Shown here one piece after another: positions 5,701-20,124 of a stretch of DNA of 21,422 nt (position 1 is the first letter of the stretch; the number at the start of each line of letters is the position of its first letter). This stretch comes from a virus, in IMG/VR virus record IMGVR_UViG_3300027907_000331, positions 1 to 21,422 of that record; one strand, 5' to 3'. A model generated the notes under the pieces. The model was not told where the DNA came from and did not search any database. It worked only from the letters and a program-made list of their open reading frames with translations. A program made the position numbers and the translations under genes.

Positions 5701-8201
5701 GTACAGCCAGTAATCTGGCGGCCATCGGTACCGAAATCACGGCCAGAACCAGCGCAGACAGCGCGCTGGGCACCCGCATTGATACAGTCGTGGCAACCGC
5801 AACCACTGACAGGAATAGTGCGAGCGCCGCAGTGACTGGCGAAGCCACGGTTCGAGCCAATGCTGACACGGCACTGGGCTCGCGCATCGACACGGTGTCG
5901 TCGACGCTGACCGGTAAGGCTGATGCCTCGGCCGTGACTGCGCTGACGACCCGAGTGACTGCAGCCGAGGGGGTGAATACCTCTCAAGGCACCGCAATCA
6001 CAGGCCTGCAAAACGCACTGCCAGGCAAGGCCGATGCCTCGGCGGTCAACAGCTTGACCACCCGTATGGAATCGGCAGAAGGAACGATCAGCAGCCAGGG
6101 TTCGGCGATCACCGGGCTGAACAACAGCCTGACGACCACCAACACCAACGTGACCGCTGCGCAAACCGCGGCGAACGCGGCGAACACCCTGGCTGGTGGC
6201 AAGGGCAAGGTGCTGGTGCAGACGGCGGCACCGGCGGCGGCCGATCAGCTGGTACAGAACCTGTGGATCGACATCACCGGCGGGGCGAACACGCCGAAGC
6301 GCTGGACCGGCTCGGCGTGGGCGGCAGTGACCGACAAGGTGGCGACCGATGCGGCGGCAGCGGCAGCCAACGCCCTGTCGGTGGCCAACACCAAGGCCGA
6401 CGCCTCGGCAGTCAGTGCATTGGATTCACGGGTGAGCAGCGCCGAAGGGGTGATTACTTCGCAGGGCAGTAGCCTGACCCGGATCGATAACACGCTGACG
6501 CGTGTGGGCGATAACTCGCCGACCAGTGTTTACCAAAGCCTGTTTAACGGGTTGGCCGTGGACACCTGGGCCAAAACAACCGCGGCCACAGGGGCCGTTG
6601 AATTGTTGTCGAATGTGGCGGGGAACATTAGCGGGGCCACCCTCACACTCGACATCCAGACGGCGGCGAACTGGTGGGGGGCGACCAATAAAAAGATTCG
6701 GTTTGATCCGAATCGGTTATACAAACTGTCGGTCCGTGTGCAGCAGGTGTCCGTCCGAGCTGGGACAGCCCCTCAGTTCTATGCAGGGCTAGACTGTTTC
6801 GCCGATGACGGAATTACCCGGATCAACACGAATGGTGCGAACTCGTCGAGCTCGTCGCATTACGTGGTGGCGTCGGCGAAAGTGTTGGCTGTGGGGGAAT
6901 GGACCGAGCTGGTCACGTATGTAAAAGGGCATACCACGGGTACTGGCGGATCGGGAGCGGGCACCGTTGCCAATCCGAAGGCGCTTAGGGTGGGTTCTCG
7001 TTACATCTCGCCGATGTTGATTGCCGGATACAACAACCTCGGCGGTGTGGTGGCGCTGGACTATTTCACCATTGAAGACGTCACGGATCAGGTGCAGATC
7101 GACGCGACCTCGGCCGCGTTGTCGTTGCTGGATTCGTCGGTGACACAGCAAGGCGCGACCCTGACCAGTCAGGGCAGCAGCATTACGTCGCTGTCCAACA
7201 GCCTGACCACCACCAACACTAACGTGACCGCCGCGCAAACCGCGGCGAATGCGGCGAACACCTTGGCCGGTGGCAAGGGCAAGGTGCTGGTGCAGACGGC
7301 GGCGCCGGCGGCGGCCGATCAGCTGGCGCAAAACCTGTGGATCGACATCACCGGCGGGGCCAACACACCGAAGCGCTGGACCGGTTCGGCGTGGGTGGCG
7401 GTGACCGACAAGGTGGCGACCGATGCGGCGGCGGCGGCAGCCAGCGCCTTATCCGTGGCCAACACCAAGGCCGATGCCTCGGCGGTCAGCAGCCTGACCA
7501 CTCGGGTCACCGCGACCGAGACCCAGATTACCGCCCAGGCGAACAAGCTGGATGGCATCTATGTTCAGGTCAATCCGGTGCTTGCGGGTGACGAGAGCGG
7601 CTATGCCGGTTCGACCGCCAGCTTTGTCGGCGTTTGGTCCGAGCAGTCGGCGCGGATTGAAGACGGTGTTGCGCTGGGTCAGCGAATCGATGACGTCACC
7701 GCTTCTGTTGGCGAGGTTAGTGCGGCAGTCCAGACAGAAACTACCGCGCGAGCGTCCACGGATGGCAAGCTCGGTACGATGTGGACCGTGAAAATGCAGG
7801 TCAATGCCCAAGGCCAGTATGTGGCGGCCGGTATCGGCCTGGGTATCGAGAACGGCCCGGCTGGCTTGCAAAGTACTTTCTTGGTCAGTGCGGATACGTT
7901 CGCCGTGGTCAATGGCATCAACGGCACGCTGTCTTCGCCGTTTGCCGTGACGGGCGGACAAGTGTTCATCCGTTCGGCCTTTATCCAAGACCTGTCGCTG
8001 TCGTTCGGCAAGATCAGCGACAACATTCAATCGGATAACTACGTGGCCAACAGCACGGGCTGGAAGCTGAGCAAGGCTGGCGGCATGGAATTGAACTCAA
8101 CGGTTGCTGGCCAAGGCCGGGTGCAGGTCACTAATCGGGCCGTAAAGGTCTGGGACGCTAACGGGGTGCTGCGGGTGCAGCTGGGGGATCTATCGGCATG
8201 A
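2745..8201 (+). CDS. Tail tip attachment / host-specificity protein J (lambda gpJ-like), enlarged
   Basis: 1818 aa, against 1132 for lambda gpJ. Residues ~1-620 are the conserved tip hub region: early KILIAMGEGEFAG, an LRFAWPAL segment, and Tyr/Trp-rich hub sequence. Two fibronectin-III-like domains follow (about 623-710 and 716-810). Residues ~850-1125 are an alanine/threonine-rich coiled-coil shaft with 32-36-residue repeats (TRIDTV...EITARTxADSALG, starting near nt 5581, 5677 and 5773) and KADASAVxxLTTR repeats. A 98-residue block at 1127-1224 is repeated at 1485-1582. Between the copies lies a ~230-residue beta-rich segment resembling a carbohydrate-binding module. The C-terminus (~1660-1818) is the central-straight-fibre type (GKISDNIQSDN, GWKLSKAGGMELNS). 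J sits at the tail tip and contacts the cell receptor. The RBS is GGAGAAAA. Confidence 0.95.
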   Translation: MSAAQQLDIYGAKGGSDKPKTPIEAPDSLRSVAMAKILIAMGEGEFAGNPTAQDIYLDNTPLQDPQGNMNFPNVKWEYRNGSIEQGYIQGIPSVENETALGIELRSGTPYVRAISNTELSAVRLRFAWPALQSVDASGNVNGYRIEYKVELATDGGAYQQVLSEAVDGKTTSTYERTRRIDLPAATSGWLMRVTRITPNQNNNKIADTMQIAGFTEVIDAKLRYPNTALLYIEFSAEQFRSIPAVTVDTKLKKMSVPSNYNPETRSYTGIWDGTFKQAWTDNAAWMTYDITTSDRFGLGRRIKPWMVDKWELYRIAQYCDQLVPDGKGGQEPRFICNLNLQGKADAWSLLRDISAIYRGMTYWAQGQLFSFSDMPRATDFDFAYTRANVIDGKFTYSSASERTRYSRALISYDNPANNYDTDVTAVTDAKLQRRYGDNPLEVSAIGCTRESEAQRRGKWALLTNSKDRGISFKVGLDGRIPLPGYVIPVADELLAGRAIGGRISAVAGRTITLDRDTQAKAGDRLILNLPNGKCEGRTVQTVAGRVVTVTVAYSVVPERELVWALDADDLAVPLYRVTSVSRPEPGVFEISAVQYDPSKFAHIDTGARLEERPISVIPITVVPAPTSVTLTASSVVSQGIAVATMTITWPAVNGAVGYDVEWRKDSGNWIKLQRTGMTSVDVVGIYAGAYVARVRAVSAFDISSIWRNSILTNLKGKSGLPPAVSFLTATPLLFGIGLKWGFPAGAEDTQRTEIWYGPANNLAAATKLADLAYPQSDYAMQSLLAGAKFFFWARLVDRTGNIGPSYPVGNGVMGQASADAGPILDQIAGQISETELGQTLLERIELIDGPPTLVGSVAQRVASEAVARAAADLVNANAISKEVTDRAAAVLSEAQARVAEDLANAGKITQEATDRAAAVLAEAQARAAAITSEANTRSSADSALSTRIDTVTASTGSNAAAIQTEITARTDADSALGTRIDTVAAGTASNLAAIGTEITARTSADSALGTRIDTVVATATTDRNSASAAVTGEATVRANADTALGSRIDTVSSTLTGKADASAVTALTTRVTAAEGVNTSQGTAITGLQNALPGKADASAVNSLTTRMESAEGTISSQGSAITGLNNSLTTTNTNVTAAQTAANAANTLAGGKGKVLVQTAAPAAADQLVQNLWIDITGGANTPKRWTGSAWAAVTDKVATDAAAAAANALSVANTKADASAVSALDSRVSSAEGVITSQGSSLTRIDNTLTRVGDNSPTSVYQSLFNGLAVDTWAKTTAATGAVELLSNVAGNISGATLTLDIQTAANWWGATNKKIRFDPNRLYKLSVRVQQVSVRAGTAPQFYAGLDCFADDGITRINTNGANSSSSSHYVVASAKVLAVGEWTELVTYVKGHTTGTGGSGAGTVANPKALRVGSRYISPMLIAGYNNLGGVVALDYFTIEDVTDQVQIDATSAALSLLDSSVTQQGATLTSQGSSITSLSNSLTTTNTNVTAAQTAANAANTLAGGKGKVLVQTAAPAAADQLAQNLWIDITGGANTPKRWTGSAWVAVTDKVATDAAAAAASALSVANTKADASAVSSLTTRVTATETQITAQANKLDGIYVQVNPVLAGDESGYAGSTASFVGVWSEQSARIEDGVALGQRIDDVTASVGEVSAAVQTETTARASTDGKLGTMWTVKMQVNAQGQYVAAGIGLGIENGPAGLQSTFLVSADTFAVVNGINGTLSSPFAVTGGQVFIRSAFIQDLSLSFGKISDNIQSDNYVANSTGWKLSKAGGMELNSTVAGQGRVQVTNRAVKVWDANGVLRVQLGDLSA
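6123..6415 (+). repeat. In-frame direct repeat in J, copy 1
   Basis: 293 bp that recur exactly 1074 bp (358 codons) downstream, with only scattered, mostly third-position differences. It encodes the NSLTTTNTNVTAAQ shaft, a small WIDITGGANTPKRWTGSAW domain and a KADASAV shaft segment. Confidence 0.9.
7197..7489 (+). repeat. In-frame direct repeat in J, copy 2
   Basis: Second copy of the 6123-6415 block, in the same frame. The copies bracket a putative receptor-binding insert (about nt 6510-7120), so recombination between them could delete, duplicate or swap that module without a frameshift. Confidence 0.9.
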
Positions 8202-10141: not shown

Positions 10142-10161
10142 ATCAATAGATTCAAACGCAA

Positions 10162-10185
10162 CCCGCCATCGAGCGGGATTTTTTT
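10162..10185 (+). terminator. Terminator-like hairpin between the fibre genes and the lysis genes
   Basis: CCCGC (10162-10166) pairs with GCGGG (10173-10177); loop CATCGA; then A and seven T's. It is followed at once by GCCTGGAGAAAAGTG and the endolysin ATG, the same arrangement as before J. Confidence 0.7.
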
Positions 10186-10200
10186 GCCTGGAGAAAAGTG

Positions 10201-11143: not shown

Positions 11144-11183
11144 AGCGGCCGGATTGGATGCGTCAACATCCGACCCGGCCGCT
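11144..11183. terminator. Long hairpin after the lysis genes
   Basis: Arms 11144-11160 and 11167-11183 pair at 15 of 17 positions plus one G-T, around the loop CGTCAA. On the + strand it is followed by GTCCCTG, not a T-run. On the minus strand it is followed by CTTTTTC, so as a classical terminator it works better leftward. It marks the border between late operon and accessory region. Confidence 0.55.
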
Positions 11184-11497
11184 GTCCCTGCAGAACGTCC
11201 CTGCAAGTCCCGCCAAGACTCCTGCTCTGTGCACAAAGCAGAGCGAGCCTATCACCTGTTTATTTATACAGTAAAGGTCTTGCTATCCATGTCTTCACCC
11301 ATCATCCCTTGGATGGGCGGCAAACGCCGTCTGGCCGATCGCCTTATTTCGCTGTTTCCACCGCATGAATGCTACGTCGAAGTCTTTGCCGGCGGGGCCG
11401 CGCTGTACTTCATGCGCCCCCAAGCCGCGCCCGTCGAAGTCCTCAATGACATCAATGGCGACCTGGTGACGCTGTACCGCGTGGTGCAAAACCACCT
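11184..11497 (+). repeat. Direct repeat, copy 1: LexA box region plus 5' part of the adenine methylase
   Basis: It matches 19802-20124 (offset 8618, rising to 8627 after a 9-bp TTTCCACCG duplication in copy 2), with scattered substitutions across the length. It includes the GCTCTG/CAGAGC inverted repeat, the LexA box, the RBS and the first ~70 codons of the methylase. Confidence 0.9.
11256..11271. promoter_or_regulatory. LexA (SOS) box upstream of the adenine methylase
   Basis: CTGT-N8-ACAG, a perfect LexA consensus with an A/T-only centre (TTATTTAT). It ends 17 bp before the methylase ATG, where LexA binding would block transcription. The same sequence is kept in the diverged copy at 19874-19889. 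Confidence 0.85.
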
Positions 11498-12083
11498 CGA
11501 AGAGTTCGTGCGCCAATTCAAATGGGCGCTCAGCTCGCGGCAGGTGTTCGAGTGGCAGAAGATGACCCGCCCGGAAACCCTTACCGACATCCAGCGTGCC
11601 GCGAGATTCTTCTACCTGCAGCACCATGCCTTCGCCGGCAAGGTCACCGGACAAACCTTCGGTACCGCGACCACCAGCCCGGCCATTAATCTGCTGCGCA
11701 TCGAGGAAAACCTCTCGGCCGCCTGGCAACGCCTCTCCGGTACCTACGTGGAAAACTTACCTTGGCTGGAATGCGCCAAGCGTTACGATCGTGCCCATAC
11801 CTTCCACTACATGGACCCGCCGTATTGGCAAACTGCAGGGTATGGGGTGGATTTTCCGTTTGAAAACTACGAGCACATGGCCGATTTCATGCGACGCTGC
11901 AAGGGCAGGGTGATGGTCAGCATCAACGACCACCCGGACATCCGCCGGGTGTTCGAGGGCTTTCACTTCGAGGCGTTGGATATCCGTTATTGCAATACCA
12001 ATCAGCGCCAAGGCAAGGCCGAGGTCAGCGGGGAGTTGGTGATCATGAACTGGGTGCCGGCAGCGTTGGGTGGTTTGTTCTAA
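11289..12083 (+). CDS. dam: D12-class DNA N6-adenine methyltransferase, SOS-controlled
   Basis: 264 aa. It has the D12-class order: N-terminal PWMGGKRRL (SAM-binding motif, GGK at 10-12), VEVFAGGAALYF, NDINGDLVTLY, then the catalytic DPPY at 176-179 followed by W. The reaction is transfer of a methyl group from SAM to N6 of adenine in DNA; the target sequence cannot be read from the protein. The frame is open upstream to 11154, but that would place the LexA box inside the coding region. ATG 11289, with AAAGG upstream, is therefore preferred. It is transcribed alone; the lysis genes end 150 bp before it behind a hairpin, and a terminator follows at 12238. It could protect phage DNA from restriction or alter host methylation on induction. 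A truncated relative lies at 19907. Confidence 0.9.
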   Translation: MSSPIIPWMGGKRRLADRLISLFPPHECYVEVFAGGAALYFMRPQAAPVEVLNDINGDLVTLYRVVQNHLEEFVRQFKWALSSRQVFEWQKMTRPETLTDIQRAARFFYLQHHAFAGKVTGQTFGTATTSPAINLLRIEENLSAAWQRLSGTYVENLPWLECAKRYDRAHTFHYMDPPYWQTAGYGVDFPFENYEHMADFMRRCKGRVMVSINDHPDIRRVFEGFHFEALDIRYCNTNQRQGKAEVSGELVIMNWVPAALGGLF

Positions 12084-12311: not shown

Positions 12312-14078
12312 TTACCGCTTGGACTCCTGAGCCATGCTTCGCAACAGGCCCGCCGCTTTCTTCGAATCACTCATTGACAGGATCGTGTCGTACAACAGGA
12401 TCAGACTGTTGCATGTAGTGGCCGGATCATTAGAGAACTTTTCAGGGGTCGCAATAACCTCCACTGAACGCCGATCCTTCGCCATCATTGCAAGAAGCAC
12501 TCTTTCAAAGTCTTTATCGTAGCTCGAGAACGGCTGCGCTTTTGTCGGGTTGGTAGCCGTTTGTTTTATTACGTCCGTCAGGGCCGCGAGGTCTTCATTG
12601 GTCAGTTCCTTCGGGACCTTATCCATCAGGTCCATAGTGGGTGTTTTGTTGTCCATACCGAGGAAGGTCACGCAATGGCTAGGGTTTGTTCTACCGAAGA
12701 ACTTCACTTCGGCAATCTGGGAGCGCCAGTAGCGGATAAGGGCCAAATCGGGTGCTCGGATCAAGTAACCTGGCACAATCGAGCCAGTGATCAGCGTCTG
12801 GACATCTGTTTGGATCTCAGCCATTGATCGGCCACCTTGCACACCTTCGACCACCGTCTTTCTCAGCTTGGCGTAATTGTTCGTGTCGTAGATCGACAGC
12901 GCCGCGTAAACAGGCGTTTTCAGCAGCGACTGCTCGATAATATTGGCATCCCGCCAATCTGAGACGCCTGACAGGCCGAAGTAGCGGGAGTCCACCACCG
13001 AGGTGATGATGTTCTGCTCTTTCAGCTCCTCCGTGGTGGGGAACCACATGTTTTGGGGGCTGGTGGTGATCGCCTTCGCAACGAACTGTGGCGTAGCACC
13101 TACGCGAGAGAGCACCTCCCTGAAACTGGCGTTTACATTGAGCTCGTCGCTGCCCCTAACCCCATTCACAGAGGCACTGTGGAAGCCAATCCGGCCCTGC
13201 TCACCGATGTAACGTTCGCGGCCTGCTAGGAAGGCTAGGGCACAAGCACTAGAGCAGCTAGTGCGGGTGTAGGTGATGAGCTGGCGCTGGGAGATCAGAC
13301 TCGCGAGCTTGTTTGCCTCCGCAATTCGGCCGCCTGTGCTATTCAGATGAATGACTCGAACCGTAGGGGAAGAGTCAAGCATGTTCCGGACGGCATCAGT
13401 GGTGCCAATAGGAATGCCCCCGGCTAGCTCTAGCTCGGTGTCGTTGCGCATCAGGCGGAGTGAGTACGGTGGTATGTTGTCGGTGCCCCGGATCATATCG
13501 ATCCCTTCGCGGATAAGGGGAATATCGTCAACGATAAAGCCTGCAAACAGGCGGAATGCACCAAGGCAGACCATCACATTGGCTATCACCGCCCAGAAAT
13601 ACTTGCCGCCGCGCGAAACGTGGGCAGATGCAGATCGGATCACCCCGACAATCTGCCAAACCGACGCAGCAATGATAACGACGTAGTAGGCCAAGATCAG
13701 GGCGCCTTGTTTCTGTGTGCCCAGATTCACGGCGTCGCTGAACTTGCCCAAGGTAACGGACAGGAGGGCTATGAAGATTGCAATCAAGAAGCCGAACAGC
13801 CAGTAGGAGACTCCGAGCGAATATTCCCCGCGCCAGTGTTTGGCGATGAAGTTGTACGACCTGGGTTGGTTGACCTTCGGGGGCGTGGCCGCCGGAGAGG
13901 CAGGGTCATCGCCCCATCGTCTCTCCACGACAGGGGCTGGTTCTTCAGCCGGGATGAATTCCTCGGTGCTGCCGACATCGGCTTGCGCGTTGGTGACCGG
14001 CTGGCCGCAGTTGAAGCAATAGTTGGCGTCAGCCGCGTTCGCTGTTCCACACTTCGTGCAATAGAGCGTTCCTTTCAT
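12312..14078 (-). CDS. Zinc-ribbon, three-helix membrane protein with ClpP-like (COG3904-type) serine peptidase domain
   Basis: 588 aa. Residues 1-25 form a zinc ribbon (C7xxC10 and C21xxC24). A Pro/Glu-rich linker leads to three hydrophobic helices (~86-110, 125-147, 160-183). Charge distribution (KHWR before helix 1, R/H/R/K between helices 2 and 3) puts the ribbon in the cytoplasm and everything after helix 3 in the periplasm. Residues ~205-360 look like the ClpP/crotonase fold seen in COG3904: VIHLNSTGGRIAEA supplies an oxyanion-type Gly-Gly, TSCSSACALAFLAG the probable nucleophile Ser277, and GRIGFHSAS the probable His300. Cys275 and Cys279 flank the serine. The C-terminal ~200 residues are helical and unassigned. 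The RBS is AGGGGA. A membrane-bound peptidase is inferred; its substrate is unknown. It stands alone on the minus strand among prophage accessory genes. Confidence 0.75.
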   Translation of the reverse strand: MKGTLYCTKCGTANAADANYCFNCGQPVTNAQADVGSTEEFIPAEEPAPVVERRWGDDPASPAATPPKVNQPRSYNFIAKHWRGEYSLGVSYWLFGFLIAIFIALLSVTLGKFSDAVNLGTQKQGALILAYYVVIIAASVWQIVGVIRSASAHVSRGGKYFWAVIANVMVCLGAFRLFAGFIVDDIPLIREGIDMIRGTDNIPPYSLRLMRNDTELELAGGIPIGTTDAVRNMLDSSPTVRVIHLNSTGGRIAEANKLASLISQRQLITYTRTSCSSACALAFLAGRERYIGEQGRIGFHSASVNGVRGSDELNVNASFREVLSRVGATPQFVAKAITTSPQNMWFPTTEELKEQNIITSVVDSRYFGLSGVSDWRDANIIEQSLLKTPVYAALSIYDTNNYAKLRKTVVEGVQGGRSMAEIQTDVQTLITGSIVPGYLIRAPDLALIRYWRSQIAEVKFFGRTNPSHCVTFLGMDNKTPTMDLMDKVPKELTNEDLAALTDVIKQTATNPTKAQPFSSYDKDFERVLLAMMAKDRRSVEVIATPEKFSNDPATTCNSLILLYDTILSMSDSKKAAGLLRSMAQESKR

Positions 14079-14149: not shown

Positions 14150-14257
14150 TTACTGCACATGCAGCTTTTCGCCTGCGTTACTGACCAGAGGGTTGGGCAG
14201 GCTCAGCACATCGACGAAGGTGTAAATGCCACGGTTTTGGGAGTGTTGTCCGCACAT
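14150..14257 (-). CDS. Possible 35-aa small protein with a strong RBS
   Basis: ATG at 14257 (minus), stop TAA at 14150-14152. The start is preceded by AGGAGGA with 7-bp spacing, one of the strongest Shine-Dalgarno matches in the window. The peptide starts MCGQHSQNRGIYTFVDVLSL and ends NAGEKLHVQ: polar, no membrane helix or signal peptide, one cysteine. It lies 71 bp upstream of the zinc-ribbon/ClpP-like gene on the same strand, so it could be its leader or operon partner. It diverges from umuD across the LexA box at 14321-14336. No family is recognised. The case rests on the RBS and an intact frame, so it could be chance. Confidence 0.4.
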   Translation of the reverse strand: MCGQHSQNRGIYTFVDVLSLPNPLVSNAGEKLHVQ

Positions 14258-14320: not shown

Positions 14321-14336
14321 CTGTATGCATGTACAG
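14321..14336. promoter_or_regulatory. LexA (SOS) box upstream of umuDC
   Basis: CTGTATGCATGTACAG, a perfect CTGT-N8-ACAG. It ends 20 bp before the umuD-like ATG (14357). TTGACC at 14294-14299 could be a -35, but no strong -10 is visible. The divergent minus-strand genes could also be affected. Confidence 0.9.
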
Positions 14337-14356: not shown

Positions 14357-14782
14357 ATGAGCTTTACAATTCTAGGTCCGATTTCCGAGGGCGGCGCGAA
14401 ACTGCCGTTGTGCTCGTTCCGGGTTCCGGCTGGGTTCCCCTCGCCGGCAGCGGATCACATTGAGCAGCACATCTCACTGGATGAGGTCTTAAATATCAGG
14501 GCGCCGCACGTCTATTTGATCGCTATCACTGGGGAGAGCATGCAGGGGGCCGGAATATTCGAGGGCGATCTTGCGGTGGTGGACAGGTCGATCGAACCGG
14601 TCCATGGCCACATTGTGGTGGCGCTGTTGAACAACGATCCCATCTGCAAGCGACTGTGCAAGCGCGGAAACGAAGTGATTCTGCTCTCAGAAAACCCGAA
14701 ATATCCAGCCCGCTACATCCTTGAGGGTGACGAGTTGTCGATCTGGGGCGTAATCACCTGCACAGTGCGCAGTCATGTCTAA
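14357..14782 (+). CDS. umuD: UmuD-like autoproteolytic subunit of DNA polymerase V (RulA/UmuD family)
   Basis: 141 aa. It has the self-cleavage region VPAGFPSPAAD (predicted cut between Ala25 and Gly26, Ala replacing the Cys of E. coli UmuD), then the catalytic Ser61 in TGESM and Lys98 in NDPICKRL, which form the Ser-Lys dyad of the LexA/UmuD peptidase family. After RecA-stimulated cleavage the processed dimer joins UmuC as a translesion polymerase. The perfect LexA box upstream gives SOS induction. The stop overlaps the umuC start by 8 bp. Carriage by a prophage or plasmid (rulAB-like) is common in Pseudomonas. Confidence 0.93.
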   Translation: MSFTILGPISEGGAKLPLCSFRVPAGFPSPAADHIEQHISLDEVLNIRAPHVYLIAITGESMQGAGIFEGDLAVVDRSIEPVHGHIVVALLNNDPICKRLCKRGNEVILLSENPKYPARYILEGDELSIWGVITCTVRSHV

Positions 14783-16052
14783 ACCTGCGCCGGTCTTCGG
14801 TCTGATCGATTGCAACTCCTTCTATGCGAGTTGCGAGCGCGTGTTTCGCCCGGACCTGGCCAAGGTACCCATCGTTGTCCTGTCGAACAACGATGGGTGT
14901 GTGATCGCCCGGAGCTACGATGCCAAACCTTTCGTGAAGATGGGCGAGCCGTATTTCCAGATCAAACCCAAACTCAAACAGCACGGAATCGTGCCGTTCT
15001 CATCGAACTACGCGCTTTACGGTGACATGAGTGAGCGGGTCATGACGTTGATTGAGTCGCTGGTACCGGCAGTCGAGGTGTACAGCATCGACGAAGCCTT
15101 CGTTGATCTCACTGGTATAGCGGGCCTGGACCCCCTTGGCCGACAGATCCGCGCCCAAGTCCTTCGCTGCACCGGCATTCCAGTCGGCGTCGGCATTGCC
15201 CAGACCAAGACCCTGACCAAGCTGGCCAATCACACGGCAAAGCGTCTGCAAGCCCAGACGGGTGGGGTGGTGAACATTACCGACCCGGTCAAGCGTGACT
15301 GGGTACTGCGCAATACGGACGTGGCGGAGGTGTGGGGCGTCGGGCGACGGATGAAAATTCACCTGGATGCCATGGGCATCAAGAGTGCCATGGATCTGGC
15401 CAAGGCCGACCCGTGGACATTGCGCAAGAGCTTCAGCGTGGTGATCGAGAAGACGGCACGGGAGCTCGCCGGCACACCCTGCCTGGAACTGGACGAGCCT
15501 GACCCACCGAAGCAGGAGATCTGCTGCAGCCGGATGTTCGGCAAGCGTTTAAAGGAACTACCGCCCATCAAGGAGGCCGTGGCCACCTACATGATGCGCG
15601 CCTCGGAAAAGCTAAGAGCCCAAGGCTCCCTGTGCAAAAAGATTCGAGTCAGCATCCGCACCGGGATGTTCAATCCGGAGGAAGCCAAGTACGCCAACGG
15701 TGTGGTGATCGACCTGCCATACCCGACCGACGATGTGCGACTGTTAACTAGGATGGCTGTCGACGCTCTCGATCATGTGTTTCGGCCGGGTTTCAACTAC
15801 AGCAAGGCAGAAGTCCTGCTGCTGAACCTCTGCCAGCCAGGTGAATACACCGAAGATTTGTTTGCCGAATCTCAACCAGGCGCCTCAACAAAGCTGACGG
15901 GGGTACTGGATCAGATCAATCAACGATGGGGGAGGGGGACGCTTCGCTCGGCCAGTGTGCCGAGCAACCCGGATTGGGGCATGCGATGCGAAATGATGAG
16001 TCAGAGTTACACCACCAGGTTGGATCAGTTGTGGAAGGTGTCTTGTGTTTGA
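14775..16052 (+). CDS. umuC: UmuC-like Y-family DNA polymerase V catalytic subunit (RulB/UmuC family)
   Basis: 425 aa, close to E. coli UmuC (422). The metal-binding palm motifs are intact: FGLIDCNSFYASCERVF with Asp12, and YSIDEAF with Asp106-Glu107. The VGVGIAQTKTLTKLANH motif and thumb (WGVGRRM) follow, and the C-terminus (WGMRCEMMSQSYTT) is the normal family ending, so the gene looks complete. It is translationally coupled to umuD and shares its LexA box. The product performs error-prone bypass of DNA lesions; in a lysogen it would raise UV survival and mutation. No integron-type insertion interrupts it. Confidence 0.95.
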   Translation: MSKPAPVFGLIDCNSFYASCERVFRPDLAKVPIVVLSNNDGCVIARSYDAKPFVKMGEPYFQIKPKLKQHGIVPFSSNYALYGDMSERVMTLIESLVPAVEVYSIDEAFVDLTGIAGLDPLGRQIRAQVLRCTGIPVGVGIAQTKTLTKLANHTAKRLQAQTGGVVNITDPVKRDWVLRNTDVAEVWGVGRRMKIHLDAMGIKSAMDLAKADPWTLRKSFSVVIEKTARELAGTPCLELDEPDPPKQEICCSRMFGKRLKELPPIKEAVATYMMRASEKLRAQGSLCKKIRVSIRTGMFNPEEAKYANGVVIDLPYPTDDVRLLTRMAVDALDHVFRPGFNYSKAEVLLLNLCQPGEYTEDLFAESQPGASTKLTGVLDQINQRWGRGTLRSASVPSNPDWGMRCEMMSQSYTTRLDQLWKVSCV

Positions 16053-17011: not shown

Positions 17012-17671
17012 TCATTGGGGGTCGTCTGAGCCCTCTTCGTAGGGATTAGCCTCGCGAATCTGTCGGAGCGCCTTGGCTAACTCCCTCACTAATGCGTCCA
17101 GGTCCTGACCCTTTAAATCATCCGGAGTGATTTCGGGTATTTCAATCGGCTCACGCAGGGAAAACTTACCCATCAAGACAGCGTTGTGCTTTTGGTCCCT
17201 TAGCGCGAATTGGGCGAGCTTGATGTTGCGATCCGCCTGCTTTTCGCTAAATCCCTCGGCCGGTTGCGAAACATGGCCTTCGGCAAAGCCGACGTAGAGA
17301 GACTCATTTTTTCGATTGTTTCTGTGCTCGCTCGCTGCCGCGACAGTGTTCAGCATCATGCTACCGAACTCTGAATTGCCAGTACCCAAGGCGAATAAAG
17401 AGTTCTGTAGTCCTTCTGAAATGAGCTTTTGCTCATGATTCCTGAGCCTTTTGAAAAGCTTCTTAAAATCTACCCCATGCCCTGCTAGAACCCTCACCCC
17501 CGCGGCTTGCAGCATTAGGCATTTCGCGATCTCCTCTCTCGCGATATGGGACAAGGTAAAGGCCCGCGCGTAGCGCTGGTTGGCGTAGAGGATTTCGGCC
17601 TCCAGAATCAAGGATTCAGCGTTAGCTGATAGGGCGTCTATGTAATCGTCGATCTGAGCCAGCGAGAGCAT
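17012..17671 (-). CDS. AbiV-family abortive infection protein (HEPN)
   Basis: 219 aa from ATG 17671, which has GGAGGA at ideal spacing; an in-frame start at 17707 adds 12 residues without an RBS. The N-terminal helical region with ILYANQRYARAFTLSHIARE followed by EIAKCLML matches AbiV, a HEPN-type family: aligned 'YxxA..L...A.EE..K' helices. A basic Arg/Asn cluster (EHRNNRKNES) follows at ~130-140 where HEPN proteins often carry RNA-contact or catalytic residues. AbiV of Lactococcus arrests phage development by binding the phage protein SaV and shutting down translation. A prophage-borne copy would be expected to protect the lysogen against other phages. No partner gene is obvious next to it. 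Confidence 0.8.
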   Translation of the reverse strand: MLSLAQIDDYIDALSANAESLILEAEILYANQRYARAFTLSHIAREEIAKCLMLQAAGVRVLAGHGVDFKKLFKRLRNHEQKLISEGLQNSLFALGTGNSEFGSMMLNTVAAASEHRNNRKNESLYVGFAEGHVSQPAEGFSEKQADRNIKLAQFALRDQKHNAVLMGKFSLREPIEIPEITPDDLKGQDLDALVRELAKALRQIREANPYEEGSDDPQ

Positions 17672-17800
17672 CGGAAACTCCTCCATGAGAGTTTGAATTC
17701 CCCCCAAAATACATCCGTTTGCGTCAACGTTTATTGGGGTGATGATGGTGATCGTAAATGGCAGGTAACTTTAGGTCTGAAATGGCGTCAAGCAATTGAA

Positions 17801-18176: not shown

Positions 18177-18554
18177 TTACTTCATATAGTCAACGTACAG
18201 AGTCGAGCCGAGAGGATGCTTTCCAACTTCGTAGTCAGGGTTCAGTGTCGATAGGTTGTGAGCGGCAATGCCTACTCCGGCGACAACACCTATTGCAAGC
18301 GCGCCAAGTGCCAGCGGAGCGCCAATTACGCTAGCCCCAGCAAAGCCGGCAAAGCCTCCCATCGAAAGCTTACGAGCCCGCATATAGATCCGAACCGACA
18401 TATCCTGCTTTTCAATTGCCTGTTCAAGCCACGTCAAGGTTTTCGAGTAGCGATCAAATTCTCCGCATTCCAACACGAAGCTCTCGTGCGCCTTGATCTT
18501 CTCGATAATGAAGTCATTGGTGACTTCGGTGATTTTATAAACGCCAACATCCAT
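18177..18554 (-). CDS. Small glycine-rich membrane protein, unknown function
   Basis: 125 aa from ATG 18554 (MDVGVYKITEVT), preceded by AAGGA at 8-bp spacing; the longer in-frame start at 18596 lacks an RBS. Residues 1-60 are a polar mixed domain with EKIKAHESFVLECGEFDRYS. Residues ~61-95 are a glycine/alanine-rich hydrophobic run (GGFAGFAGASVIGAPLALG followed by ALAIGVVAGVGIA) with repeated small-xxx-small spacing, enough for two close-packed helices or a hairpin in the membrane. The rest is a short polar tail. No family is recognised. GC content appears lower than in the tail genes. It is the last gene before the att site, a usual spot for conversion cargo. Confidence 0.65.
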   Translation of the reverse strand: MDVGVYKITEVTNDFIIEKIKAHESFVLECGEFDRYSKTLTWLEQAIEKQDMSVRIYMRARKLSMGGFAGFAGASVIGAPLALGALAIGVVAGVGIAAHNLSTLNPDYEVGKHPLGSTLYVDYMK

Positions 18555-18916
18555 GGAGAGAGTCCTTAACTTTGTAATATGCAGCATATCGGCCACGATC
18601 TAGCAACCTTTAGGCCGTTCACAGTCCTTGGAAATGCACACGAGGGGCAAGTGCTAAACCTTCGCATGGTGGCAATATGGTATCGTTGTGTTGGAATTCA
18701 AGGAGGGGTTGATTGCAAAGCGATTCCTTGGTGGAGGGTCGACATTGCAACGGTAGGCAGTCAGGGAGGGAGATATTGGCAGAACGCCGTGGATGGTCCT
18801 AAAAAGGTGTGGGGACTTTTTCGGGGATTCGCTATTTCCTGTTCAACTCTGTAAAGCACCGTTTGCAGCGAGCGCCAGAAGAAGACTCAGCAAATGCTGG
18901 GCATTAGGCCCATTTT
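18555..18916. other. Non-coding prophage end before the att site
   Basis: No supported gene. It includes a third imperfect copy of the TTGGCAGAACGCCG motif at ~18777 (best match to 16421) and a TGGGC/GCCCA hairpin at 18898-18912 just before the tRNA-derived sequence. Integrase or excisionase arm sites would be expected near here, but none could be identified. Confidence 0.45.
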
Positions 18917-18966
18917 CAAGCATGGGGTGCTAGGGGTCGAGTGTTCGAATCACTCCGTCCCGACCA
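18917..18966 (+). other. Attachment site: 3' part of tRNA-Pro(GGG) (att copy, no 5' half)
   Basis: It reads as the 3' half of a tRNA. Anticodon loop ATGGGGT at 18922-18928 (anticodon GGG); 3' anticodon stem GCTAG at 18929-18933; five-base variable loop; T-arm GAGTG-TTCGAAT-CACTC (18939-18955); acceptor 3' strand CGTCCCG plus discriminator A and CCA (18956-18966). The 5' anticodon stem pairs at only 4 of 5 positions, and no D-arm or 5' acceptor strand is upstream. This is the expected product of integration at a tRNA 3' end, not a working tRNA gene. Confidence 0.85.
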
Positions 18967-18993
18967 TTATTCCTGAGTAAAATCAGACACTTG

Positions 18994-19044: not shown

Positions 19045-19801
19045 CTACCCGGTGATTTCGCTGATATTCAGGTCCGGAATTGCCTCGGACCAGATGACTT
19101 CCTCGTGGTCGCGCTGGTAGTTTTTGGTCATGCCTTCGCTCGCAGGCCCAGCGATTTTCTGGCCATCCTTTCCGGCTTTCTTGTGCAGGTGCAGTGACAG
19201 TGCTCGCACTTCGTGGAAGCCCGGCATCTCTTCTTCCTTCCATCCTGCGTAACAGTTCGCCGCCTCCCTGGCCTTGGCTGTTTTCTTCTGTACCACATAC
19301 AGAAATCCCTCTCGAACGCCATCGAAGCGCATGTCGAGAATGTCGGTGCGGCGTTGGGCTGTGATCAATGCCAAGTCAATCGCGTTCTGAAGCCAGGCAG
19401 GTGCTTTTTCCCTGATCGCCTTCAGACCTTCTACGGTGTGACGCCGGCGCTGCTTCTTCTCGATGCGATTGATGGTGCTGGCGGCCGGGTTGTCTGGGCA
19501 TAGCCCCTTGGCTGCGGCATGGTTAAAGATGTCAATCAGCAAGGCACGGCACTGGTTGGCGGTGCGCGGGGTGAGAGCGTCCAGCATTTCTGCGATCATA
19601 CGGATCGTGACCTGGTCGACGGCCATACCCTCGAACTGCTTGCGAAAGCGCCGGAAGTGCACCGCGTACAACCCCAGTGTGCCCTTGGCCAACTCGCGAG
19701 GTGGCAGAACGTCGCGCTCGTAGGTGTCGAGGAATCCTGTGAATGTTTCTGTGGCGTTATTCATCACGGCGCCAACCAGGTCAACATCCAGGCTGGCCAC
19801 C
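19045..19801 (-). pseudogene. Tyrosine integrase, N-terminally truncated and missing a catalytic His
   Basis: The remaining frame contains the SAM-like core-binding domain and the catalytic domain of a tRNA-targeting phage integrase. Seen on the minus strand: Arg in ITAQRRTDILDMRF, Lys in VVQKKT, HEVR box, and the Tyr nucleophile in GMTKNY (Tyr codon 19117-19119). The usual GH(A/S/T)S box reads GPAS here: codon CCT at 19144-19146 replaces an expected CAT. Integrases of this type carry ~100 more residues with an arm-binding domain; here integrase sequence ends at about 19801 where the diverged methylase-region repeat begins. The open frame continues into the repeat only to a TTG at 19854, and an internal ATG lies at 19764. 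It is therefore a remnant, probably inactive. The end next to the tRNA-Pro sequence fits normal int-att adjacency. Confidence 0.8.
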
Positions 19802-20124
19802 GTCCGTGCAGATTGTCCCTGCAAGTCCCGCCAAGGCTCCTGCTCTGTGCACAAAGCAGAGCGAGCCTGGCGCCTGTTTATTTATACAGTAAAGGTCTTG
19901 CTATCCATGTCTTCACCCATCATTCCTTGGATGGGCGGCAAACGCCGTTTGGCCGATCGCCTTATCCCGCTGTTTCCACCGTTTCCACCGCATGAGTGCT
20001 ACGTTGAAGTCTTTGCCGGCGGTACCGCGTTGTACTTCATGCGGCCCCAGGCGGCGCCCGTTGAAGTCCTCAACGACATCAATGGCGACCTGGTGACGCT
20101 GTACCGCGTGGTGCAAAACCACCT
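19802..20124 (+). repeat. Direct repeat, copy 2: LexA box and 5' part of a diverged adenine methylase
   Basis: It aligns to 11184-11497 with scattered mismatches and one 9-bp in-frame insertion (TTTCCACCG duplicated). It begins inside the integrase remnant and stops abruptly after the shared AACCACCT. The divergence argues for a related but separate phage source, not a recent local duplication. Confidence 0.9.
19874..19889. promoter_or_regulatory. LexA (SOS) box in the methylase remnant
   Basis: Identical in sequence to the box at 11256-11271 (CTGT-TTATTTAT-ACAG), 17 bp before the ATG of the truncated methylase. Confidence 0.8.

Follow-up and report, generated by a model that had tools for sequence, protein, structure and literature searches.

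What could a single prophage gene accomplish whose product joins a zinc ribbon to membrane helices and a ClpP-like domain? The question is raised by a 21,422-nt stretch of viral DNA (positions 1 to 21,422 of the IMG/VR record IMGVR_UViG_3300027907_000331; hereafter the window), in which an open reading frame (ORF) for a protein of 588 amino acids (aa) occupies, on the minus strand, exactly the interval 12312–14078 given in a preliminary description of the sequence. That description had envisaged a periplasmic peptidase with a defence or conversion function.

Structure and predicted membrane topology of the 588-aa protein

From its N- to its C-terminus, the protein comprises a zinc ribbon, three transmembrane helices, a ClpP-like domain and a putatively helical C-terminal domain (all coordinates in this section refer to the minus strand). 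The zinc ribbon (residues 6–28, 13995–14063; CxxC...CxxC) matches Pfam PF13240 (E 1.1e-5); its spacing is CxxC-x10-CxxC, and its score of 25.5 bits lies just above the curated Pfam cut-off of 25. Hydropathy analysis identified the three-helix membrane module (residues 73–190, 13509–13862), with hydrophobic segments at approximately 88–110, 126–147 and 163–184, so that a ribbon followed by three helices, as previously proposed, was recovered. The signature of this module, HWRG..SL..W and W..VG..R, is kept across Gammaproteobacteria. It is followed by the ClpP-like domain, presumably of the COG3904 type (residues 205–370, 12969–13466), supported by PHROGs 30575 and 1827, a PDB profile search and signal-peptide-borne relatives, and probably periplasmic. 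The remainder of the protein (residues 371–588, 12315–12968), in which Cys469 and Cys556 are conserved in the alignment of relatives, is predicted to be helical from a poor AlphaFold model. In L015/L025, the C-terminal domain occurs apart from the other domains, in a short membrane protein; in L025 (9321–10127, minus strand) this protein, which has the C-terminal domain only, adjoins a gene for a NACHT-like ATPase.

The ORF is a real gene under purifying selection, with a dN/dS of 0.16 relative to the nearest homologue (L003, 78% identity). Calculated by part against the same homologue, the ratio was 0.05 for the ribbon, 0.10 for the ClpP-like domain, 0.13 for the C-terminal domain, 0.25 for the membrane module and 0.48 for the linker.

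Charged residues precede helix 1, and the loop between helices 2 and 3 carries R148, R156 and K159. Together with the odd number of helices, this distribution predicts that the N-terminus is inside and the C-terminus outside. Periplasmic placement of the ClpP-like domain is further supported by two alphaproteobacterial relatives. In one of them, a signal-peptide-like N-terminus replaces the anchor, and the alignment extends through the ClpP-like domain into the beginning of the C-terminal domain, while the other carries a signal-peptide-like N-terminus and has its ClpP-like domain fused to an LprI lysozyme-inhibitor domain. The invariant cysteines of the ClpP-like domain likewise favour the periplasmic side. 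Judged from these sequence features, the active site very probably faces the periplasm and the zinc ribbon is probably cytoplasmic, in agreement with the layout first suggested.

Putative catalytic residues and fold

The segment Cys275-Ser276-Ser277-Ala278-Cys279 (13242–13256, minus strand) places the putative nucleophile, Ser277, between two cysteines, and His300 (13179–13181, minus strand) is the putative general base; the preliminary description had numbered both residues correctly. Cys275, Ser277 and Cys279, as well as an SxGG motif, are invariant in 22/22 relatives, and His300 is kept in 21 of the 22, the sole exception being a plasmid protein of Sphingopyxis that has Asp. The catalytic pair and the SxGG motif are also kept across Gammaproteobacteria. 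The position of the ClpP triad Asp is occupied by Asn343 in the 588-aa protein and is variable among its relatives, many of which have N, S, K, A, G, Q or E instead. Since the Asp that completes the triad of S14 ClpP is not conserved, a Ser277–His300 dyad appears likelier than a ClpP triad, as does an arrangement in which some other, as yet unrecognised residue is the third. The cysteines of the CxSxC motif would probably form a periplasmic disulfide (Cys275–Cys279) around the nucleophile.

Profile comparisons linked the domain to ClpP. Residues 230–311 match phrog_30575 (E 4e-8) and phrog_1827, annotated as 'ATP-dependent protease' (E 4e-7), and the ClpP-type PHROG matches span E 4e-8 to 5e-5. 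When the PDB was searched with the family profile, a ClpP came first (E 0.11), with the catalytic Ser aligned on Ser and His on His. The hhalign comparison with E. coli ClpP was weak (probability 5.6%; controls 0.1–0.3%), and comparison with the E. coli SppA profile aligned only the 20 residues around SPGG; no SppA match for the 588-aa protein was found in Pfam or NCBIfam. NfeD1b_N was the Pfam family with the most member matches (2/11), which were marginal (best E 0.012). AlphaFold models built from three sequences (pLDDT 40 for the full length, 38 for the domain alone) were too poor for a fold search. From sequence evidence, a ClpP-like fold, the one named at the outset, is predicted with high probability for residues 205–370. 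Within the ClpP/SppA/NfeD fold class, the most likely activity of the 588-aa protein is that of a protease, and we consider proteolysis itself to be reasonably probable.

The prophage and its cargo slot

The left part of the window represents a lambda-like siphovirus, here a Pseudomonas prophage, which encodes tail protein J, a cell-wall hydrolase and an Rz-like spanin (Pfam, PHROGs); tail protein J is 73–79% identical to those of phages PseuP_222 and Medea1. The gene order in PseuP_222 is J, endolysin, Dam, SRAP and integrase, and that in the window is J, hydrolase, Rz, Dam, the 588-aa gene, an SRAP remnant, umuDC, AbiV, att and a degraded integrase. The D12-class adenine methylase gene (Dam; 11289–12083, plus strand; Pfam E 9e-22), which forms the left border of the cargo slot, matches in its place those of PseuP_222 and L003, and a perfect LexA box is located just before it (11256–11271). 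The right border is the att site (18920–18967), a tRNA-Pro 3' end, which is 100% identical to a stretch beside the integrase of Pseudomonas phage phiPSA1 and is tRNA-Pro in other records. Rfam gave no match on the window. Since the 588-aa gene is situated between Dam and the tRNA-Pro att site, where PseuP_222 has SRAP, it lies in the cargo slot. The umuD-like (14357–14782) and umuC-like (14775–16052) genes (14357–16052, plus strand; Pfam) are found between the same borders, as is the AbiV HEPN defence gene (17012–17707, minus strand; PF18728 E 4e-27, TIGR04498 E 9e-32). Thus, the prophage accessory region is supported, and the neighbours reported earlier (AbiV, an SOS methylase and polymerase V) are correct. 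The C-terminal domain, the SRAP remnant, the att site and Asn343 at the position of the ClpP Asp are additions to the preliminary description.

Several repeats were detected in the window. A segment of approximately 340 bp around the Dam start, including the LexA box (11162–11497), is duplicated beyond att (19780–20124; 91–92% identity); this copy, by the degraded integrase, might have been left by a second, related prophage that used this tRNA-Pro site as well. Within the gene for tail protein J, 300 nt are duplicated (6116–6415 and 7190–7489; 92%). A 43-nt intergenic terminator-plus-RBS-like element is present in three copies (2035–2077, 2701–2743 and 10156–10198) and, since part of it is near-identical in PseuP_222 and phiPSA1, it may be a joint for the exchange of phage modules. 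The cargo region also contains a 139-aa ORF (18177–18596, minus strand) with a glycine-rich hydrophobic stretch and without a confident Pfam match.

SRAP remnant and possible SOS control

Upstream of the 588-aa gene, at a distance of 75 nt and on the same strand, lies a remnant that comprises the first 35 codons of a gene for SRAP ('SOS response associated peptidase'; 14153–14257, minus strand; tblastn, 52% to the N-terminus of the PseuP_222 SRAP); the remaining SRAP sequence was not found in the window. From a perfect LexA box (CTGTATGCATGTACAG, 14321–14336), umuDC diverges on the plus strand, and the SRAP remnant and the 588-aa gene on the minus strand. Chance alone would give about 0.3 LexA boxes in the window, and three are present. 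On the minus strand, no terminator was detected from the box at 14321–14336 or the SRAP remnant to the 588-aa gene. The SRAP remnant, the LexA box and the absence of a terminator together suggest that the 588-aa gene may be under the SOS promoter of SRAP, with expression by read-through; on the other side, a scan of the region revealed no sigma-70-like promoter. In the homologues checked, the 250 nt upstream contained no LexA box, and such a box was rejected as a family-wide feature; SOS control would therefore be specific to the phage of the window.

Distribution of homologues

In the phylogenetic tree, the 588-aa protein groups with L002, L003, L016 and L017 (100/99) and then with L018 and L072 (91/91). 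This close clade of seven loci is patchy and largely mobile, comprising two prophages (the window and L003) and an apparent ICE (L002). The zinc ribbon is present in 6/7 of its members and absent from the other Pseudomonas relatives. The distant Pseudomonas relatives (L019–L024) are ribbonless chromosomal genes with conserved neighbourhoods, and the wider family includes solitary chromosomal genes, which indicates that the family is not defence-specific. The possibility, raised beforehand, that homologues are housekeeping chromosomal genes only does not apply to the ribbon clade and holds in part for the distant Pseudomonas relatives.

Homologues are carried by 10–11 of 387–400 Pseudomonas genomes. 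The combination of the three-helix module with the ClpP-like domain was found in 11/400 Pseudomonas genomes (E 1e-8; one match to the C-terminal domain only) and in 11 of the 369 gammaproteobacterial genomes; a second draw of Pseudomonas genomes returned those already sampled and contributed no further loci. No homologue was present among 50,697 phage records, even for the ClpP-like domain at E 0.1, and viral contigs yielded one homologue only besides the 588-aa gene, which marks this gene as rare cargo. The plasmid search gave just five matches, all remote and alphaproteobacterial. By itself, the three-helix module also occurs in front of C-terminal parts that are unrelated, in one case in a gene adjoining a family member. 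The neighbouring genes of L031 (1213–2730 and 2749–4182, minus strand) have the three-helix module in common and differ in their C-terminal parts, and a tyrosine integrase (L054, 3233–4408) is encoded close to this gene pair.

Genetic context of the closest homologues

The prophage contig L003 carries Dam, a Pycsar pair and SRAP, with the homologue at the contig edge. The Pycsar assignment is based on PycC (E 3e-10) and on a PycTM match (E 5e-12) among the pooled neighbours, taken as the adjacent membrane protein. Homology between L003 and the window covers the 588-aa gene plus 13 nt and stops there. In a related prophage (L027, 3873–5244, minus strand), a Pycsar-like cyclase and an adjacent membrane protein are encoded in the Dam–SRAP interval, which suggests that this interval is a slot for defence cargo. 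In L002, the homologue has a pfkB-like host gene on one side and TraI_2/ArdC/TraG genes on the other, and the region is an apparent ICE whose end is a predicted one. A SIR2 gene matching PDC-S25 (E 1e-86) lies about 2 kb away in L016, the homologue in L072 directly follows HipBA, and in L018 an AbiU2-like protein comes next (E 4e-4, below the cut-off). No defence gene was seen in the neighbourhood of L017. A CdiA C-terminal toxin is encoded near L073, which in the tree is the closest of the relatives without a ribbon.

In total, AbiV, Pycsar or SIR2 is present near three of the seven clade loci, with HipBA at a fourth and, weakly, an AbiU2-like protein at a fifth. A control scan of the neighbours of chromosomal ribbonless relatives also gave matches (a type IV restriction-like PADLOC hit and a few weaker ones). 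With hits at control loci and a clade of seven loci, the co-location with defence genes is suggestive and not statistical proof; its use as proof was dropped. No recurrent neighbour or operon partner was found across the loci, and the 588-aa protein itself matched no PADLOC model. The defence or conversion function postulated at the start is thus partly upheld: the Pycsar, SIR2/PDC-S25, HipBA, ICE-like and, weakly, AbiU2-like contexts of close homologues make it more likely, while the lack of a PADLOC match, the control hits and the solitary chromosomal relatives tell against it. Based on the association with neighbouring genes, a function in conflict comes close to an even chance; phage exclusion specifically is a rather unlikely form of it.

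Possible function

The explanation that we favour, tentatively and as a whole at somewhat less than an even chance, is that the protein is a periplasm-facing ClpP-class hydrolase, carried as mobile single-gene cargo, which protects the cell and the element. The three-helix module would anchor the hydrolase in the inner membrane, with the zinc ribbon inside the cytoplasm. The periplasmic domain, with its probable Cys275–Cys279 disulfide around the nucleophile, would use the Ser277–His300 dyad to cut an envelope protein or peptide of a rival, such as the machinery by which phage DNA enters, or a toxin or peptide arriving from outside, and cutting would shield the cell and the resident mobile element. 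In the prophage of the window, DNA damage may boost expression through the promoter of the displaced SRAP gene. A more elaborate version, in which infection or the entry of a phage is sensed by the cytoplasmic ribbon or by the C-terminal domain, whereupon a disulfide-gated periplasmic Ser-His protease cuts an envelope target, appears improbable; such a trans-membrane immune protease would constitute a single-gene type of defence acting outside the inner membrane.

Alternatively, the protein might be an SppA-like protease of envelope maintenance or peptide resistance, which would clip residual peptides in the membrane, inner-membrane proteins that have misfolded, or antibacterial peptides, and thus a prophage fitness (conversion) gene rather than an anti-phage defence. 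Its general layout is as in membrane ClpP-class proteases, the ribbonless relatives are ordinary chromosomal genes and an alphaproteobacterial relative bears the LprI fusion, but the 588-aa family has Ser-His as opposed to the Ser-Lys of SppA, and its close clade is patchy and mostly found in mobile elements beside conflict genes. Even with the protection from lantibiotics and cationic peptides afforded by Bacillus subtilis SppA (PMC7568657) in its favour, we regard this explanation as possible yet doubtful.

Proteolysis would be dispensed with altogether if the domain were a ClpP-fold scaffold or a non-proteolytic hydrolase that binds and signals across the membrane, the conserved Ser/Cys motif then being structural or serving other chemistry. 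The ClpP acid is indeed replaced in many members, one relative has Asp for His, and the crotonase superfamily includes many non-proteases. However, retention of Ser (22/22) and His (21/22) over deep divergence, and a dN/dS that in the ClpP-like domain is the lowest outside the ribbon, make such a role unlikely. As the degraded integrase, the truncated SRAP and the duplicated Dam fragment indicate that the right end of the prophage is decaying, the gene might also be a chance host gene drifting in a remnant and functionless for the element; with the ORF intact, a dN/dS of 0.16 and two prophages carrying the gene or its homologue in the same cargo region, this is very unlikely.

Should the conflict role assumed in our favoured explanation hold, the cargo of mobile elements would include a ClpP-class protease working on the export side, and defence or superinfection exclusion would extend to regulated periplasmic proteolysis. 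Even without such a role, the analysis offers a starting point for functional work on a family that is widespread and apparently unstudied, with CxSxC...GFH as a clear signature at which site-directed tests can be aimed. The truncated SRAP gene behind its LexA box also offers a concrete case of cargo possibly placed under an existing SOS promoter.

Comparison with known systems

The ClpP-like domain is presumably of the COG3904 type, an uncharacterised ClpP-like family of 'predicted periplasmic proteins', with which it would share the SxGG ... CxSAC ... GFH ... WxP layout and export or anchoring; the 588-aa protein adds the zinc ribbon, the C-terminal helical domain and the mobile cargo setting. 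Nothing was found in the literature on the function of COG3904 or on phage defence by zinc-ribbon/ClpP proteins. The catalytic Ser and His of ClpP align with Ser277 and His300 in the profile search, but ClpP is cytoplasmic with an ATPase partner, has the triad Asp and lacks the flanking cysteines, and the 588-aa protein, which is probably periplasm-facing, differs in all these respects. Enzymes of the NfeD1b/1510-N type are also membrane-associated ClpP-class serine proteases and employ a Ser-Lys dyad, whereas the 588-aa family has a conserved His where ClpP has His, and no neighbouring stomatin was seen.

SppA (protease IV) of Bacillus and E. coli is likewise a peptidase of the ClpP class that is anchored in the cytoplasmic membrane and faces its outer side; unlike the 588-aa protein, it relies on Ser-Lys catalysis and possesses neither the zinc ribbon nor the HWRG module. 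The B. subtilis enzyme, a membrane protease that assembles as an octamer, renders cells resistant to lantibiotics and cationic peptides, and a K199A mutant of SppA is included in the same report (PMC7568657). Phage superinfection-exclusion membrane proteins such as P22 SieA and T4 Imm resemble the 588-aa protein as prophage-encoded inner-membrane cargo, with DNA entry as a possible target (PMC11436027). According to this review, in which the word 'protease' is absent, SieA is a prophage inner-membrane protein that blocks DNA entry. Such exclusion proteins act without a recognised protease domain, unlike the 588-aa protein. Since the latter has no SppA Ser-Lys dyad and no defence-model match, it would appear to belong to neither the SppA nor the SieA family, and the two are best regarded as precedents only.
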